A stretch of DNA of 64,000 nucleotides, taken from assembly GCA_016758965.1 (NCBI GenBank), contig JAEPRB010000002.1, forward strand, positions 465,732-529,731, written 5' to 3'. The notes below the pieces were generated by a model that ran no database searches, was not told the origin of the DNA, and saw only the letters and a program-made list of their open reading frames with translations. Made by a program: the position numbers and the translations under genes. The DNA comes from Circinella minor (lineage: Eukaryota; Mucoromycota; Mucoromycetes; Mucorales; Lichtheimiaceae). Position 1 is the first letter of the stretch; the number at the start of each line of letters is the position of its first letter. Below are positions 54,107-64,000 of the stretch, piece after piece.

Positions 54107-55042
54107 GAGCTTCGGTAATTCTGTAGTAATTTCCTACAGTTATTTCCAGCAGTAGTGACCAGACTTTCCCGGACAGACGCTGAACAACATGCAGCATTTT
54201 CTTATAAAAATTCACTGAATACTGGACCTGAAGTAGCTGCAGTAGTAGTACAAGAGGCTAAAGGGCAGCAACATGATCATATAACGATAAGTTTTCTTTA
54301 TATTTTCCATAGTTACAAGAATCATCTCGAGTACTTTAAATCGGTCTCCTTACTCTCAATAAATAAGCTTAATTTTTATGATTAGTGAATGTACATAACT
54401 ACTATCTGTATATGAAGCTTACTTCTTACTTCTCAAGCCTCTGAAATTCAAACAGCTTAAACATACAGTTATATATCAATTTTTGAATTATTTTATCTAT
54501 TCCCTATGTCAGGTTCGAACGCACCTGATAATTTTTCTTATTATTAAATTATTTCTATATATTATTTTCTCTTCATCTAATCAATATACACGCTATACTA
54601 CTGCAGCTATTGTAACGAGTAATTGTGATTACAAAGCAGTTTCTGTGGAGTCGGGTTAACCGAAAAATTATGGATTTGGGGCTCCACATGGTAAGTATTT
54701 TTTCTTATGAAAAAATTATTAAAGCAATTCTTATATCTGCCAGCTCAGAATTTTAATAAATATGACTAGTGATGATGTAAATCTCATAGTGAGTCATGGA
54801 AATGATAAAAAAAAAATAAAAAATTCGTGTTATGTGGCTCTTTTGATGGTGACTGATCTATGATGAGTACAACTATTGCAGCTTTCTCATTACTGCAGAC
54901 TCTACTACTGCAACTACCGCAGTCTTCCTCTTAAGGAAAGATGTGGTGAGCTTTTATTAAGCAAATCCTACATGTTGGTCGGTGTTTGCCTGGGAAAGTT
55001 CGGCCACTACTGCAGGAAATTACTGCAGAAACACCCAAGCCC
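54107..55042. mobile_element. Non-autonomous TIR element, Mutator-like, 936 bp
   Basis: The left arm (54107-54205) and the reverse complement of the right arm (about 54950-55042) align over some 80-95 bp at roughly 80 percent identity. Shared strings include TCTG-AGTAATTTCCT, GCAGTAGTG-CC, ACTTTCCC and CAACATG. The left arm has an extra 13 nt (a partial duplication of its own CAGTTATTTCC). Long terminal repeats with a flanking 9-bp duplication are typical of Mutator-like elements. There is no transposase frame inside, so it would need a helper. Identity was estimated by eye. Confidence 0.6.
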
Positions 55043-55051
55043 GATAATGAC
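55043..55051 (+). repeat. Right target-site duplication of the MULE-like element
   Basis: GATAATGAC, one mismatch to the left copy. Confidence 0.5.
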
Positions 55052-56698
55052 CTACTACTTTTCTTTGTGCATATACATTAAGTATTTTTAGTATTTTTCA
55101 ATTAGTCTATTATCTTCTTTTTTTGTATTAAGTACTATATTACTTTTTTAAAGGTTGTGATAAGGTGCCAATCGACAATATATGACTAAGTGTGTATATC
55201 TAAACTTGCTTTCAATCCGTTTTGCTTTCTTAGCAAAGAAGCCAGGTTGCCAAATTCATATAAATTCCGATTAGGAATTGTGGATATGAATTAAAGTGAA
55301 AACTGGTCGACCTAGTAGCTAATGATACCTGTCCACAGAGCTAATACTCAGCTTTTTTTAATTTACAATGGGTATAGATCATACTTCTTGATAACTTCCC
55401 ATATCTTTTTGCCATTCAATGCCGTGTATTAGGTGTCGGCCAACCACACTAATATATTCACCACACTCGACAATTTGGCCTTGTATAAGTAGACTTTCAT
55501 TAAGAGAAACCTCTTTGTAGTTCCATAATAACAATTCCCTCCAGCAATCCACCCAAATTCATTAGTCACTAGTTGCCTAATTCTTTTTCAATAAAGTTTT
55601 TACCATTCAAATAAACATAGCTCGCTCGCTTTCTTGTCTTGTTTTTTTATTGGTGTGTACCTTTTGTTATCCATGTTTTTGATGAAATTTTGTAGGAAAT
55701 AAGAGTTTATGAACCTCAACTTTAGTGCGAAATTGAAAGTATTCAAGAAATCTATTAATACAACGATTGTCAAGAATTCATTCACAAATGTCTACTGAGT
55801 CACAAAAGATTTTCTCTTTTTTATTCTGTATTATTTGTCTTTATTATTTCATATGAACTCTCATGTGCCAAACATGCTGAAAATATGCCACTTTGAGGTG
55901 TATGATAGAATAATAATTTAATTCAACAGTAAAACAAATAAATAAAATGATAATAGTCCTTTCTCCTTTGGAACAGTATTTATTTTCGGAAATAAAATAA
56001 AGATTATTATTCTATGTAGAAATTGGTCTATTTATATGAATTGTTTATTATGATGAGTTATTTCTGGTATGTCATGTGAAGAATGTATGGTAAAAACTTG
56101 TTATTTTATTTAATGTCTCCTGTTAAAACGTTAAAACACAGTGTCAGATCTCGGATATTTGTTTGAGACAGCTCATACACGTATGTAAAGAAAAATAAAA
56201 ATCTTGTTGGGATGGGGGGAAAAAGACAGAGAATTAAAGTAAGAGGTACTGGAGATGGATTGAGTAGGCTCAGTAGAAAAAGATGCTAACGGTTTATTAT
56301 CGTCAGGTGCGTTTTTTTGGGGAGAGGGAGGGGAATTTTTTTAAATATTATTATTACTATTATTAATCGATGGGTAAGTGTATTATGTAAGTGGTGGCGA
56401 ATCTAAGTTTTTTACCTAATAAGCTTAGGAGGAGAAGGATCAATTCATGTTAATAGTTGCTTGACTAGGATTTTCATTTTGATATTGCTGTTGGGTGGAG
56501 GTTGGATATTGATGATCGTCTAATTCGGCTAAGATTATACATACTACAGGCCATAAAACTTTTAGCTGTTATATCCCTAATGCAGAAGATGGTTTACTTT
56601 TTAACAGGTGATTAAGAATATAAGATAGTGAATCATTAGTTTTGGTGATGTGCATTTTAAGACGCTTATGCATTTGGAGGTAGTGTATTGAATGTTGT

Positions 56699-56962
56699 TT
56701 GGTAAACTGTGATGATAAGCATGTTATGCACGTTTTTCATTTACCACCAGAAAGCCAGCAGATTTCCCAACGGATACAACAGCTTCGCTCCTTTCTTGTC
56801 ATGGAAAGCCACATTATGGGGTTGATTCCTGATGTGGTGCGACAAGCTGCAAGAGTTTTGGATCCACTGAGTTCAGCTCTTTTGGGAGAAATATTATTAT
56901 TTTTATGTAGTCCTATTACTGATTTAGGATTGGAAGATGATGGTGCTTTTGTGTGGTATTGA
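56699..56962 (+). pseudogene. Unidentified open frame or gene fragment
   Basis: This 87-codon frame is predicted to be helical (QRIQQLRSFLVMESHIMG, ARVLDPLSSALLGEIL) and ends FVWY. It lies in relic-rich DNA with no visible promoter or introns, and the opposite strand is also partly open. It is most likely a fragment of an element gene; I do not recognise the family. Confidence 0.2.
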
Positions 56963-57156
56963 ATAAGTTGCCATATGGGAGACTGGCATAATTTGTTCTA
57001 ATGACTAGTTGATGGTTGTTGTAGAAACTGATTTTTGAGTAGTTTGAGTATGGTGTCCTCATGAAGTAGTTGTTCTTGGTATAAATATTTTGCTTAAAGG
57101 ATATTAGTACGTTCATACATGCTTGGTAGACTCGTAATGTGTCTTGTCATTTTTGT

Positions 57157-57280
57157 ATTTAACACATAATATTCATAAAGATAGTTATTTGTCTTTTTAA
57201 ATATCAAAATACAGCGTACATTCAATTATGCTTTGCTGACATATTGTGTGTTTTCCTATTTGGACCATGATTTGAGTTGT
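57157..57280 (+). repeat. Short dispersed repeat, outer copy
   Basis: About 120 bp that recur in reverse orientation at 60960-61090 inside the transposon. Shared strings are CATAAAGATA-TTATTTGTC, TACAGCGTA, AATTATGCTTTGCTGACAT and CCTATTTGGACCATGATTTG. A weaker partial copy (AAATACAGCATAG, CACTGACATTTTGG) follows at 57336-57390. Confidence 0.6.
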
Positions 57281-57487
57281 ATCGAATGTACAATAGCTTC
57301 ATAATAATGGTCATTTAATATTATATATTTAAATACAGCATAGTTTAAATATTATGTTTCACTGACATTTTGGTATTTCATGGTGTGTTTCAATGACTCT
57401 TAATATTAAAGAAGTCTGTCTTCTTTATTGATACTATTTGACATAGTACACCATGGGAAAGAATTCAAGCGATCCTAACAATCCTAA

Positions 57488-57495
57488 CAAATCCT
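57488..57495 (+). repeat. Left 8-bp target-site duplication of the large transposon
   Basis: CAAATCCT, identical to 63644-63651. Confidence 0.75.
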
Positions 57496-57519
57496 GGCTC
57501 GGATAACATGTCTGAGGCT
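57496..57519 (+). repeat. Left terminal inverted repeat
   Basis: It begins GGCTCGGATAACATG. The right terminal repeat, reversed, begins GGCGGGGATAACATG. Differences are at positions 4, 5, 16 and 17. Confidence 0.75.
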
Positions 57520-57546
57520 GAGGGAATTAATTAATTAATTTTTTGG

Positions 57547-57581
57547 AAAAGTACCCTGAAGCTTCGCTTCAGGGTACTTTT
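57547..57581. repeat. Perfect hairpin, 16-bp arms
   Basis: AAAAGTACCCTGAAGC (57547-57562), loop TTC, then the exact complement (57566-57581). It lies 28 bp inside the left terminal repeat and 160 bp beyond the stop of the transposon gene. It could be a transposase-binding site or a foldback sequence acquired by insertion. Confidence 0.7.
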
Positions 57582-57741
57582 TCAATTTATACTTGCGACT
57601 TATTGCAAAACATATATTTTTTATACAAAATAATGAGAAATGTATTTATTCATAAAAAAGTATAACAAAGTAATTGAGAATATAAATTTATAAAACTATA
57701 AATAGAGTATACGTGATGTAATATAGAAGTGCTTTATATAT

Positions 57742-60700
57742 TTATGACTGGTTATTATCAACGTTTTTGCATAATCGACGATTGTATTTGCCATTGCAGT
57801 TAGTATAGCCACACAAGGAGCATGCTGATTTTTGACGATATTTAGGCAAACCAGCTCTTAAATTTGTATTACTAGTACCAGTGATATTATTATTGATTGG
57901 AATAATCTGTTGCTGAATAGAAGGAGAAAATTGTTGAGGAGGGTGTAGTTGAGGAAGATGTTGTTGTGAATAAATTTGCTGCTGCGGATAGGTGTATTGA
58001 TATTGTGAATACTTTTGTTGTGGATAAGAACGTTGTAAATGAACTTGTTGGTATATTTGCTGATGAGAATACATTTGTGGAGGATGAGCTTGTATGGATG
58101 GTGGTTGTACTAATCCTTCTATAGTAATGTTCATATATTATTGTTAGTGTCTGCAACTGATGTCATGTCACTCCCATGTATATGAAACGTTCCATTTGTG
58201 TTAACCAACAAACATTTTAAAATAATGATACAAGATAAAACCAAGCTACCATGTCCAATAGTAGAGATTTTTATGATTACCTGTATTATTATATATTGAC
58301 TGTATGTACAAAGGAACCAAATTATAATGTATGTTGTTTCTTAAAGCAATGTTAACTGGTTGAGAAATAATGCGAGGAGCAGATGGTGCAGATGATATCG
58401 GTATAGGTGCTTTTTCAGATAGGGATGGTGGTAGTTGAGATGACGGATCTGATACTGCTGATGCTAACGGGACTGGTATTTGAACGCTTTGTTCTACCCG
58501 AATATGTTTGGTTGGTGTTGGTTGTTTTGGGGATAGAGCTGATCGTTTTCGTATTGGGGAGTGAATAGCATCTCTCGCTTTATTGATCTCCTCTTTATTA
58601 TTGTAGATTGACTGCCTAATGTTATCTTTCTCTTTCCAAGCATGATAATAATTACGCATATGCTCAAGTGTTTTGTAAAAAATAGTAATGCCGTCAACAT
58701 TCTGGGACCAGATCTTTGTAAATTCTGTATAATCAATTGTTTTTGTTTTATGCTCGGAAAAATGTTTGAGTAATAGTTCATTAAATAAAACTTCTTCTTC
58801 AGTGGTATGAACTGGTACAATTGCGTGAGCTGCTTTCTGTCGCATGGCAATAAATTTATACTGCGCACCTTTTGTTTGCAACGTTGATCTATTTATCATT
58901 AGCAAGGTCGCAATATTCAATGATGTTGACATATGGATGGTATTTTTTTCTGGTAATGTAGATTCTCTAATTCCAAATGATTTCATTGCACTCGATGGTA
59001 GTCTGGATATACCAAATTCCTCTCCCGACGAAACGAGCTGCAGTGCTTGCTGATGTACTAATGGTTCGTTATATGTAACAGATAACCCAAGTGAAATTTC
59101 TAAATCATTAATATGCTGAGTTATCTATGGGTCGTAGTGTCCAATATGTACACGACCGTATCTGTTTGCTGTCCCAACCTGTAAAAAAATGTAAAATAAA
59201 TAAATTCACTTCCATACTATTTTACACATTAATATATTAAATACAATATATAATACAACATACATCAATATTATGTCTTAAACGATAATCAGCCAATGCA
59301 GCTTCCATAAGTTCAACACTCGCACCAAATGATCCAAATCTTCGAATCAGATTCTGGTGAATACCACCCTCCAAGGAATTTGTACCACGACTACAGCGAT
59401 AGAGAGTAAGACCATCCTTGTCAGTTCCCATAGAAAAATAAAAAGGAACACCTGATGAATCTGAAACATGACCTAAATGGATAGTAGTAAGAATATTTCT
59501 GGCCTGTCTCCAATTATCATAATCGAATAATGGACGACCTGTCCTGGCACACAAAAGAGGACCATATGTTTCAAACAGATCTTTTACTGCATTATACAGT
59601 ACTTTTGGGGGTGGCACAACGCCTACAACAAATAGAAAAGTGTGTTATTATATTTGATTCTATATACAGGCATGCTTATTTTAAGTTTGAAACGTACGTC
59701 GAACTCTCCGGAATATCCAATCTGGACTTTCAGCAAGTTTTTTATTCCATGTTGTCCCTTGTTTAATCAAAATGTTACTGACCAGTTCCTTGTCACCATC
59801 ATCAATAATAAATAGGGTATCTCGAAAAGCCCTTTTGAAAACTTTGGATAAGCCATGCTTTTGGGAAATTTTTAGAATGTCCATTAAGTGGAAAGCATCT
59901 TTTAATATTCTTGAATGGGTGGGTTCTTTCTGCTTCTGCTCCAACTGTGACTTATTATTATTTGCTCTTTCCAACTGCAAAAATTGCTGTTGGCCGAATT
60001 CTTTGCTTCGTTCATCCACAGTCATAGACACCAGTTCATTATCTTCATTATTATACCCATCAATATTAGTACTATCTAATAGTTCATCTGTTTCTTCGTC
60101 AACGTCATTAACATCGTTAGAGTATATACACTCTGTATTTTAATAATAATATTTATTAGTATACAATATACATAAATTTATATATTAGCTTATATCTTCT
60201 ATCTCGAAATATAAAAGACCTACCATCTTCTGCTGTGCTTATGTGATTGTCGCTCGATTCTGTCTGCACTGATAGACACTGTTGCTCTATACTATTTGTA
60301 GGTTCTTCTTGATCAACTTCCACTTTTCAATATGTACGAAGTTCATTAATGCGGACAATCATTTTAAATGGGGGTTTTCCAAAGTCTCTTAAGCATTTGT
60401 TATGAGCTTTTACCATCGCACCTTTGATACAAACTTTTTTAACAGTTACAATAGCTTCATTTTTTTTTCAAACCTTGACCATTCAAATCGCTAGTTTGTT
60501 CTGCAATCTCACCATAAGCCGCAGCATCGCTAAGTCTTCCTCCTGGGTTGTATGAAATAGCTTGCTCTGAAGTATTTTATTATACTGTAAGTGACAGTTC
60601 CTTTGATAAACTACTGTATATATTATAAATAGCTAAAACATTACCTGTGTTATATCAATCAAATATAATATTAATAAAGAGACGTTAAAAAGTCAACGAG

Positions 60701-63413
60701 ACCCAAAAGAACAATAATTGAACTGAAGTTTATTAAAATAAAATATTATCTCTATTTATATGAATCTTATTATCGGTGGGATATATATTGATATGTGTAT
60801 ATATATAGCTATACGTAAGATTTAAATTTGTCATGGCTGTGTGAATTATGAATATAAGATTAATGATATTAAGATTAGACTTTGAGCGGTTGATGATATG
60901 ATATATCTACGCAGCTGTTATCTATTATCATTATAGAAGACGGACTTCTGTGTTCTTACAAATCATGGTCCAAATAGGGAAGTACACGAAATGTCAGCAA
61001 AGCATAATTAAAAATACGCTGTACTTTAATAATTACGTAAAATGACAAATAATTATCTTTATGAATAATATGTGTTGGATACAACAACCTGGACAAATTG
61101 GCTTAGAAATACTTGCTCCTATTACTCCATGACTTTTTACTTCCTAAAAAATTTTCAATGACACCCATGCATCCAGAGCTGCATAATTGATCTGATCTTC
61201 AGAAAGTCGTGCTGCATCCCAATTGCCAAGGCGTACCTCATCATCCTTTCTTAAAGTGCGATTCAGCACTGCTTCGCAAATCTTTTTCAAACTCATTCGC
61301 CTATCCTTAATTACTCCTTGACTTCTGCAAAAACTGCCAAGCTCATATTCACCATTACATGGAGTTTTGAAATCACATTTTGTCTTGTTCAAATCCAGAT
61401 TAACACTACAACCAATTTTCATAATAGATTTGCTCTCCAAAAGTGCACACAACGATGGCGGCAATTGATCAATATGACTGACACAACATACCAAAGCAGT
61501 ATGATCATCTGCAATTTGTATGATGACGACTTTGCCTTGGTAACCAGTACGTCTGTCAACCGGCCATTCACAGTCATACCCAATTGCTCTTTGATCATAC
61601 ACAACTTTACCATCAATTATATGCGATTGTCCTTGTTCGAGAAAAGTCTTGATACTGTCTTCAATTTGTTGATAGGTATAAATGCATTTGACAGCGACTT
61701 GGTCCTTGGGTAGTTCCAAAACTGGAAAAATCTCTGGCTCAGATATTTGAGACGGTTCTTTTTCTGTAATTGGAGTAACACCTTGTGAAAGTGATGGGAA
61801 AATGTTCTTGAGGAAGTTTTGTTCGCCAGTTACATTATCTGTAAAAAATATCTAAGGCTGTTGATAACCATACAATTCATATGCATCTCTCATAGCTGTA
61901 AAAGCATATTGTAAATGCTCCATGGATTTGTTGGGCACAAGGTATTGTAAACGCACTTCTTCGTACTCATTTAATAGAGTATAAAGTGCAGCAAAAACAG
62001 GCTGCCCATTTGCTTTATTCATAAGCTTAATAATTTTGAAAGTGTGGTCACCCTTAAGATAAATACCATCAAGGGCTTGCATTTGCTTGTCCATAAGGTG
62101 CCGCATTTCACCAATAAATGAAGTGTAAAATGATTGTAAGTACTGTGGTGATGGCAAATGGCCTGCATATTTAAGCCGATCGTCAAATTGAGAGAATGAA
62201 ACAAAAGGTTTTTGTTCTAAAGTTGGATATTTACATAAAAAAAAATAGCTTGAAGATACTGTAGCCGATGTCTTGAATATTTTAACATGTGCATTTCTCT
62301 AAGAATTTTGCTGAAACGCTTAGGTCCAACAGAATTTTGCACGCATGAGCGATAAAGATCACCAACTGGTTTTGACAGCCCACTACGATGGGTCATATAG
62401 CCAGGGTATTCACATTGAAGCATTTTAGGTAATTGGTGGATAATTTCTGAATCATGGCTAACAAATGACTTTTTACACTTGGCACAATAATAACGGTAGC
62501 CCATTATGTAAAAACAACTATTGTTATTTATTATAATTTTAATCAGTAAATATTCAAAAAAAATAAAAAAATAAATCACGTTTTAAGTTATAAAATAGGC
62601 ATACCCATCATGGTCAACAACTCGACATGCGCATGGATCTTTTTGATATCCATTGTTCTTTAATTTTTCGTCCTTATGAATAGGACATTTAAGCGTTATA
62701 AGATTTTTAGATAGCATGTGGGGAAACCAAAGAAAAACCCGTGGTTTGTATAAATCGGTTGGATCGAGATTGTGCATCAAAACAAAAAACAGATCTTTGA
62801 GATATATTTAAAAGTGACCGTCTCTATACTCCTTTGGTGTACCCTGCTCCCTGAAACGTTTTTGAAGACCAAGCAAATAGTCTTGTATCACACCTGAGGT
62901 CTGTTCTTCTTCCTTGGCGTTCTCCTCGGAAATTGGCTCATAGTCATATATATTATCATCGTCATCAGGCAATGGTGTAAGTTGAATAGCGCTATCAATG
63001 TTTTCTTTGTTGCTATTTTCCATGAGTTGAATAAGTAGCATTAATTCTTCGACCGGTGGTGAGATAACACGTTCTTCAGTCTCAATTGTTGCCTGAAGTA
63101 TTGTGCTAGAAGATTCCGATTCATTTTGAATCTCTACATTTGATTGCTGTACATTTGCACAGGGAGATTGATCAAGGAATTCATTTTGAATCACCACGTT
63201 TGATTCATCTAGACCTGTAGCAGTAGGCTGCTCTACGGCACGCTGAAGCATGTTTTGTATGTTGAGTTGGTTAGGGTCACCCCTTCCAGTTTTTTTGTTT
63301 TTTGGACGTCCTGCATTGTGATTAGATGAATTCTTAGTTCCTTTTGGTCTGCCAGGACCTTTTTCGTTTGGAAGCAATGATTTTTTTTGAGTTTGGTTTT
63401 TTGTTAGAAACAT
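57742..63413 (-). pseudogene. Degenerate AT-hook / Cys-rich / DDE transposase / 3'-5' exonuclease / zinc-knuckle protein
   Basis: Read from 63413 leftwards. Two AT-hooks (PGRPKGTK, AGRPKNKKTGRG) and an acidic linker come first. A Cys-rich domain follows (LYKPRVFLWFPHML, LKCPIH, CRVVDHDG joined by an 87-nt intron to CFYIMGYRYYCAKCKK). Next is the first part of a DDE-like core (YLKGDHTFKIIK, then IFFTDNV). Then comes a DEDDy exonuclease at 61144-61719 with all motifs: GYDCEW, GCSVNLDLNK, QINYAALDA. The core resumes (HGLSKVFKRAFRD, PDWIFRRV) and reaches RCSRGTNSLEGGIHQN, whose Glu is the probable third acidic residue. A C-terminal segment (FYKTLEHMRNYYHAWKEK) and a Gln-rich tail with CSLCGYTNCNGKYNRRLC end it. 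Introns at 62518-62604, 60133-60223, 59623-59697, 59179-59263 and 58119-58280 have good borders. In-frame stops lie at 62808, 61852, 61144, 60327 and 59125. Frameshifts lie in nine-base homopolymers at 62237-62245 and 60460-60468. I recall this domain order from large hypothetical proteins of other fungi. Confidence 0.78.
60960..61090 (-). repeat. Short dispersed repeat inserted in the transposon gene
   Basis: Reverse-oriented copy of 57157-57280. It sits where the exonuclease-side reading (HGVIGASISKPICPG) breaks off. The next recognisable coding piece (ISYNPGGRLSDAAAYG) resumes only near 60580, so an insertion of up to about 500 bp, or loss of coding sequence, has occurred here. Confidence 0.5.
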
Positions 63414-63619
63414 ATTGAGTTATATTATATAGTAATAAGGGTCTTTTGACAAAGATGAAACGTCTATTATACAGTAACTCAATGTTTAATTTAAAGCCAG
63501 AGTAGAAAGGCTATCAACATATATGGCTGAACCTATTTTCTCAATTGTTACACATGTAGTCAAAGTGTAGTTTCATTGGCAGACATAAATCGTCAAAACC
63601 TTTTTTTATTAGAAGTTCA

Positions 63620-63643
63620 AGCCTCACTCATGTTATCCCCGCC
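63620..63643 (-). repeat. Right terminal inverted repeat
   Basis: On the plus strand it reads AGCCTCACTCATG and ends CCCCGCC. It is the inverted partner of 57496-57519 and lies 206 bp upstream of the transposon gene's start codon. Confidence 0.75.
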
Positions 63644-63651
63644 CAAATCCT
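63644..63651 (+). repeat. Right 8-bp target-site duplication
   Basis: CAAATCCT, identical to the left copy. Confidence 0.75.
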
Positions 63652-63852
63652 GACATAGCAATTTAAAACTCATATTGGTCACTAGCTTGTTTTGGAAATT
63701 TGTGTATCCACAAAATTCACATCAATCATCATACATGCAAAATATTATTGGTCAAAAATAAACATTGATGGTGGTAATAAAAAATATATTCATAAAAAAT
63801 AATAATAGAAATAAAATTATAATAAAAATAAAATTATAATAAAAATAAAAAT

Positions 63853-64000
63853 AAAACAATAAAACAATAAAATAATAAAACAATAAAACAATAAAACAAT
63901 AAAACAATAAAACAATAAAACAATAAAACAATAAAACAATAAAACAATAAAACAATAAAACAATAAAACAATAAAACAATAAAACAATAAAACAATAAAA
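63853..64000 (+). repeat. Octanucleotide tandem array (CAATAAAA)n running off the window
   Basis: About 18 nearly perfect 8-bp units with one 5-bp slip (AATAATAAAA). They follow a related AATAAAA-rich region (63775-63852) and reach the last base of the window. Confidence 0.9.

Follow-up and report, generated by a model that had tools for sequence, protein, structure and literature searches.

A dead Circinella minor transposon with a WRN-type exonuclease inside a predicted DDE-type transposase core

The window analysed here, a stretch of 64,000 nucleotides from contig JAEPRB010000002.1 of the fungus Circinella minor, contains a transposon of 6148 bases between two copies of the octamer CAAATCCT, whose spliced gene joins a predicted Asp-Asp-Glu (DDE)-type transposase core to an exonuclease of the DEDDy class. 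At a probability of roughly 0.8, and including the mechanism proposed below, we read this element as a dead DDE-type copy from the exonuclease-bearing fungal lineage that has been described under the name Dada. The preliminary description of the window, made from the letters alone, knew of no account linking such proteins to defined ends and a target duplication; the architecture itself was reported for Dada by Kojima and Jurka in 2013 (PMC3706591, as far as the consulted part of that paper goes), and the idea of an exonuclease within a transposase was therefore already published. To a combination known since 2013, the present analysis adds defined ends, an 8-bp duplication with empty sites, and scattered insertion sites, which go beyond the 2013 account as consulted, with Repbase lying outside the comparison.

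Boundaries and state of the window copy

The element, which was examined within the 46.6-Mb C. minor genome, is flanked on left and right by CAAATCCT, a perfect 8-bp duplication, and ends in 24-bp terminal inverted repeats (left GGCTCGGATAACATG..., right ...CATGTTATCCCCGCC) that pair at 20 of 24 positions, as the preliminary description had claimed. Elsewhere in the window, pairs lying 4-8 kb apart that combine an 8-bp direct repeat with at least 20 of 24 matches occurred only in a TA-rich stretch (33.6/38.8 kb of the window), where up to 22 of 24 was reached; in five Markov-1 simulated windows, the top scores came to 15-17 of 24. Furthermore, a sister copy, L009, is 97-98% identical to the window element and has identical terminal bases, flanked by a perfect 8-bp duplication of different sequence, AATAAAAT. 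The DNA bordering the window element is itself part of a repeat, and five further copies of this repeat (L035-L039) are empty sites that run straight across the insertion point, holding a single CAAATCCT. Because L009 shares the terminal bases but has a different duplication, and because five empty sites exist, the ends are real boundaries; the search for intact copies and empty-site alleles thus bore out the earlier claim of a bounded transposon. A host gene lying between chance repeats was ruled out by the same sister copy and empty sites, together with L028, a 1.4-kb deletion derivative.

For a diverged relative, L018, the duplication is TAAATTTT and four empty sites were found (L040-L043), so that the 8-bp duplication is backed by empty sites for two elements. 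Exact 8-bp duplications were found at five of 20 loci in the same genome (the window, L009, L018, L010 with AAAATTAG, and L011, where the duplication is weak because it is a T run), and that of L017 matches at seven of eight positions. No motif common to the target duplications was found. With up to two mismatches, the end motif occurs 59 times in the genome, as against 19 for its reversed control. Outside this genome, a 32%-identical relative at 1501-3938 of L034, a contig titled Sporosarcina that is probably misbinned fungal DNA, has the duplication CTTGCTAT and inverted ends matching at 16 of 20 positions. The end pair of C118 was set aside as uninformative, since the sequences flanking it are inverted copies of one another.

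The window copy is a dead, non-working gene. Relative to L009 it shows 116 differences over 5700 aligned bases, 96 of them transitions, with five premature stop codons and, within exons, two indels of one base each. It is also interrupted by a solo long terminal repeat (LTR) that inserted later than the transposon's own jump and is flanked by the 5-bp duplication ACCTG (60643-60647 and 61087-61091); because of this duplication, the site can be read as lying just within intron 2 or a few bases into exon 2. The preliminary description had called the transposon complete, but the window copy is not an intact one. The solo LTR derives from an abundant LTR retrotransposon, with 40 scored matches among 201 genome candidates.

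Three further observations concern the ends and flanks. A long, almost perfect palindrome lies at 57543..57585, about 50 bases inside the end that holds the 3' end of the gene (hairpin z -8.7), and shorter hairpins, with arms of 8 bp in L010 and 7 bp in L028, occur near the corresponding position; the palindrome may serve the transposase as a binding site. The left flank at 57353-57443 is a short interspersed repeat, covered by 34 of the 40 flank matches listed. At positions 539-660 of L018, what seems to be an end of a second such family (GGCCTGGGCACCATAACTGGGGCGGACGG, resembling the L011 end) adjoins the L018 element, apparently a nested insertion.

Transposase core and exonuclease

The gene model rests on L009, a 5.7-kb element whose seven exons encode 1549 amino acids with six GT-AG introns and no internal stop (a hand-made model from genomic sequence), and the exons of the window copy were placed by mapping from it (Table 1). 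The GDH, FTDNV, DCEW, VNLD, YAALD and TNSLEGG motifs are all located where the preliminary description had put them. Among the loci that cover them, the first D (D427) is kept in 17 of 17 and the second (D497) in 16 of 17, with the counts for DxFH and the third catalytic residue, E1090, given in the table. A splicing artefact was ruled out, as the core of L023 from the zinc domain to E is one stop-free frame (845 amino acids; L023:3771-6281 translates whole).

Table 1. Features of the transposon in the window
Feature	Position	Strand	Remarks
Target site duplication CAAATCCT, left copy	57488..57495		Present once at each of five empty sites
Left terminal inverted repeat (gene 3' end)	57496..57519		20/24 against right end; end shared by L009 and L028
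Exon 7	57742..58118	-	C-terminal region; zinc-knuckle-like end CSLCGYTNC...C
Exon 6	58281..59178	-	Conserved C-terminal region
Exon 5	59264..59622	-	TNSLEGG; third catalytic E at about 59369-59371, kept in 13/13 covering Circinella loci
Exon 4	59698..60132	-	DxFH motif at about 59888-59899; D and H kept in 15/15 covering loci
Exon 3	60224..60566	-	Beta-rich segment past the exonuclease; one-base indel relative to L009
Solo LTR, 439 bp	60648..61086		TG...CA; absent from L009; exon 2-intron 2 border
Exon 2	61089..62517	-	Rest of zinc domain, first D, second D, WRN-type exonuclease; stops and one-base indel relative to L009
WRN-type exonuclease (exon 2)	about 61144-61600	-	
Second D (exon 2)	about 61837-61839	-	
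First D (exon 2)	about 62047-62049	-	
Exon 1	62605..63413	-	Motifs that we take to be AT-hook-like; first half of DUF6729 zinc domain
Right terminal inverted repeat (gene 5' end)	63620..63643		Paired with left end
Target site duplication CAAATCCT, right copy	63644..63651		

Sequence and fold comparisons together support the prediction that the core is of the DDE type and that the exonuclease lies inside it, in line with the earlier claim of a DDE-like core. The Pfam profile check answered in part, with MULE (PF10551) matching three of five closely related proteins at E 2e-4 to 8e-4, below the curated cut-off. In the VIA fold comparison of a relative with an exonuclease-less record, the first ten rows comprised ISCth4, Hermes, foamy-virus integrase and Transib. 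For the first model, ISCth4 was found by VIA and lay outside the 50 Foldseek rows shown; Foldseek gave no match at E <= 0.001 for the second model, and a PDB sequence search with the piece spanning the first two D residues returned three weak matches alone (E 0.42 or worse). The loop holding E (794-799) has a predicted local distance difference test score under 50 in the better predicted model. The C-terminal dimerisation domain of hAT transposases was not matched in Pfam scans of eight window pieces or five core proteins, which stop short of the whole spliced protein. KDZ/Zisupton was considered because of the 8-bp duplications and dropped, as the same kind of scan of window pieces and core proteins gave no KDZ match; its motifs are also unlike those of the window element.

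A zinc-binding pattern is present in the N-terminal region, and the C-terminus is zinc-knuckle-like. The N-terminal pattern is C-x2-C ... C-x2-4-C in L011, L012, L022, L023 and L025 and C-x2-H ... C-x2-C in L009; it was not found in 13 other rows, where the assembled sequence tends to be incomplete. The C-terminus of L009, C-x2-C-x4-C-x8-C, resembles those of P0033 and P0014.

The preliminary description called the exonuclease RNase D-type, but WRN is closest by both sequence and fold, followed by EXD2; Nibbler, RRP6 and RNase D are also among the fold matches. The domain had been placed between the second and third acidic residues, and it does lie inside the core, more exactly between the second D and the conserved DxFH motif. 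In a first set of 26 proteins, 21 retain all five catalytic exonuclease residues, as do 35 of 49 in a second set, where the count is 24 among the 29 proteins with an intact DDE triad. Among the remaining five of these 29, P0061 and P0077 have gaps, P0084 combines one exonuclease substitution with an altered DxxH, and the last two are the Boletus proteins P0070 and P0073. Nine pairs were compared by the ratio of nonsynonymous to synonymous substitution rates (dN/dS): for eight of them the exonuclease gives 0.14-0.53, while the part from the zinc domain to the second D spans 0.12-0.85 over all nine. In our reading, the exonuclease chemistry is usually kept, yet not every lineage would require it.

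Relatives are numerous. The exonuclease exon has at least 56 matches in its own genome, and two protein searches, both of which scored only candidates sharing most words with the query, found 50 relatives (the named ones from Mucoromycota, Amanita, Ephemerocybe and Podochytrium) and 49 relatives (47 with fungal names, which we take to be Agaricomycetes). With P0033 common to both, 98 distinct relatives (P0001-P0098) were obtained, and this points to a transposase identity for many of the fungal proteins that bear the annotation "3'-5' exonuclease" or "DUF6729". A protein search with a 235-amino-acid exon found none among 171 candidates, scans of viral contigs gave no confirmed relative, and a literature search returned no paper on DUF6729 and none on Apophysomyces with a transposon and an exonuclease. 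One Apophysomyces record, P0032, joins the transposase to SH3 domains; it probably represents two neighbouring genes merged by annotation, capture being possible.

Role of the exonuclease and alternative readings

In the mechanism that we propose, the AT-hook and zinc regions at the N-terminus of the transposase would probably recognise the GGCnCGGATAaCATG ends, and the D-D-E site would free the element and join it to the target with the 8-bp stagger that the duplications show. DDE cleavage, strand transfer and a cut-and-paste mode would follow the pattern of the relatives (MuDR, hAT, P, Kolobok and IS256), with insertion at scattered AT-rich places; no tRNA or small nuclear RNA (snRNA) gene was recognised in the loci scanned. 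The exonuclease would most likely trim 3' ends that lie exposed near the transposase complex, where donor or flanking DNA has been broken. Because transferred 3' ends must stay protected, the flanks left at the donor break are the more probable substrate. As a share of the whole reading, this trimming role is tentative and falls a little short of even odds.

Several observations weigh against the reading of the element as an exonuclease-bearing Dada relative with such a mechanism. L012 and L016 are bordered on both sides by end-like motifs but have no duplication to match, the only repeat at L028 is an offset one of 6 bp, and at 11 of the 20 loci at least one end is unrecognised or no matching pair was found. 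The exonuclease is full-length but plainly dead beside an intact DDE triad in P0070 and P0073, both from Boletus, and in P0018 the full-length domain has lost all five residues, again with DDE intact. The dN/dS of the L024-L026 exonuclease pair is 0.75, and the dN/dS signal is blurred by decay, as stop codons are present in several of the copies compared. Finally, likeness to Dada was judged by the published description and not by sequence alignment, and the element departs from published Dada, as consulted, in its targets, in having terminal inverted repeats and in the length of its duplications.

These dead full-length domains, the single substitution of P0084 and three Apophysomyces records without an exonuclease domain would all suit a domain that is now mainly a structural insertion, its chemistry being dispensable for transposition; hAT and P transposases also carry insertion domains. 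Such a role is unlikely, if a serious contender, in view of the five residues kept in most DDE-intact proteins and in the first set, and of a dN/dS below 0.55 in eight of nine pairs. Moreover, the exonuclease-less Apophysomyces entries (P0028, P0029 and P0032) are protein records only and may be annotation artefacts. An exonuclease that acts on RNA, for example on host-silencing small RNAs rather than on transposition intermediates, would fit a fold family that includes the RNA enzymes Nibbler, RRP6 and RNase D, but we regard it as improbable, with WRN and then EXD2 the nearest by sequence and fold and the domain fused inside a DNA-handling core. The 8-bp duplications, inverted ends, non-RNA-gene targets and sub-threshold MULE match could also point to a lineage apart from Dada, nearer to MuDR or hAT, that acquired its exonuclease at an identical position in an event separate from that in the Laccaria and Ectocarpus elements. 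This is rather doubtful, since Agaricomycete relatives, from the class of Laccaria, share the architecture; the exonuclease is of the same DEDDy class and likewise follows the second D and precedes DxxH; and the N-terminal zinc cysteines, introns and element length fit published Dada (PMC3706591, in the part consulted).

The exonuclease-bearing fungal elements might form a lineage of their own, placed beside site-specific Dada rather than inside it, with inverted ends, 8-bp duplications, broad insertion and a working WRN-type insertion domain that acts on the 3' ends of donor breaks, a possibility that we consider less likely than not. If it is true, the repeated loss of exonuclease chemistry, in Boletus relatives and in a metagenomic relative nearer to Mucoromycota proteins, would let transposition be compared in nature where ends are trimmed and where they are not. 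Since live and dead exonuclease versions coexist beside intact DDE triads, the role of the nuclease in transposition becomes testable.

Comparison with Dada and other known systems

As described in the consulted part of Kojima and Jurka (2013, PMC3706591), Dada is a DDE superfamily with DxxH and with N-terminal CCCC and C-terminal CCHC zinc motifs, whose elements of 4.7-11 kb insert into small-RNA genes with 6-7-bp duplications and, in the families examined there, have no terminal inverted repeats, Dada-U6 and Dada-U1 having sub-terminal ones only. In Dada-1_LB and Dada-2_LB from Laccaria bicolor and Dada-1_ES from the brown alga Ectocarpus, the second D and DxxH are separated by a DEDDy exonuclease, for which these authors propose a likely role in processing cleaved 3' ends (PMC3706591). 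The window family shares with these elements a DDE core with DxxH after the second D, the DEDDy exonuclease at the same place, introns, and the N-terminal CCCC zinc motif, and L009 falls within the published length range; at the C-terminus, L009 has a zinc-knuckle-like end that lacks the H spacing of the published CCHC. The window family has defined terminal inverted repeats, 8-bp duplications in place of the 6-7 bp described for the superfamily, empty sites and targets other than small-RNA genes; for the Laccaria and Ectocarpus elements, the account as consulted gives no termini. ARAGORN (bacterial code, no positive control) found no tRNA gene in the window or 19 loci, and no Rfam family was found in window positions 55000-64000 or 11 loci (no positive control). 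Because of the 8-bp duplications, the inverted ends and the lack of RNA-gene targets among those found, the name "Dada-like, exonuclease-bearing element" is used.

The site-specific Dada elements of fish, Perkinsus and others share the DDE and DxxH plan and the zinc motifs, but differ in inserting into snRNA, tRNA or 5S genes, in their 6-7-bp duplications and in their sub-terminal inverted repeats, and no exonuclease is reported for them in the consulted parts of the two papers (PMC3706591, PMC8869645). The nearest solved fold of the core is that of the IS256 family member ISCth4 (PDB 6xgx, 6xg8), which is bacterial, compact and without exonuclease or zinc domains; MuDR/MULE and hAT (Hermes) match more weakly in sequence or fold, and we know of no exonuclease insertion in either. 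KolobokD and KolobokE are likewise DNA transposons carrying an exonuclease, but theirs are DEDDh or lambda-type nucleases and their targets TTAA; the KolobokE nuclease lies downstream of the transposase domain, and the KolobokD exonuclease has been proposed, in the part of the source consulted, to degrade intermediates from the 3' end (PMC9587614).
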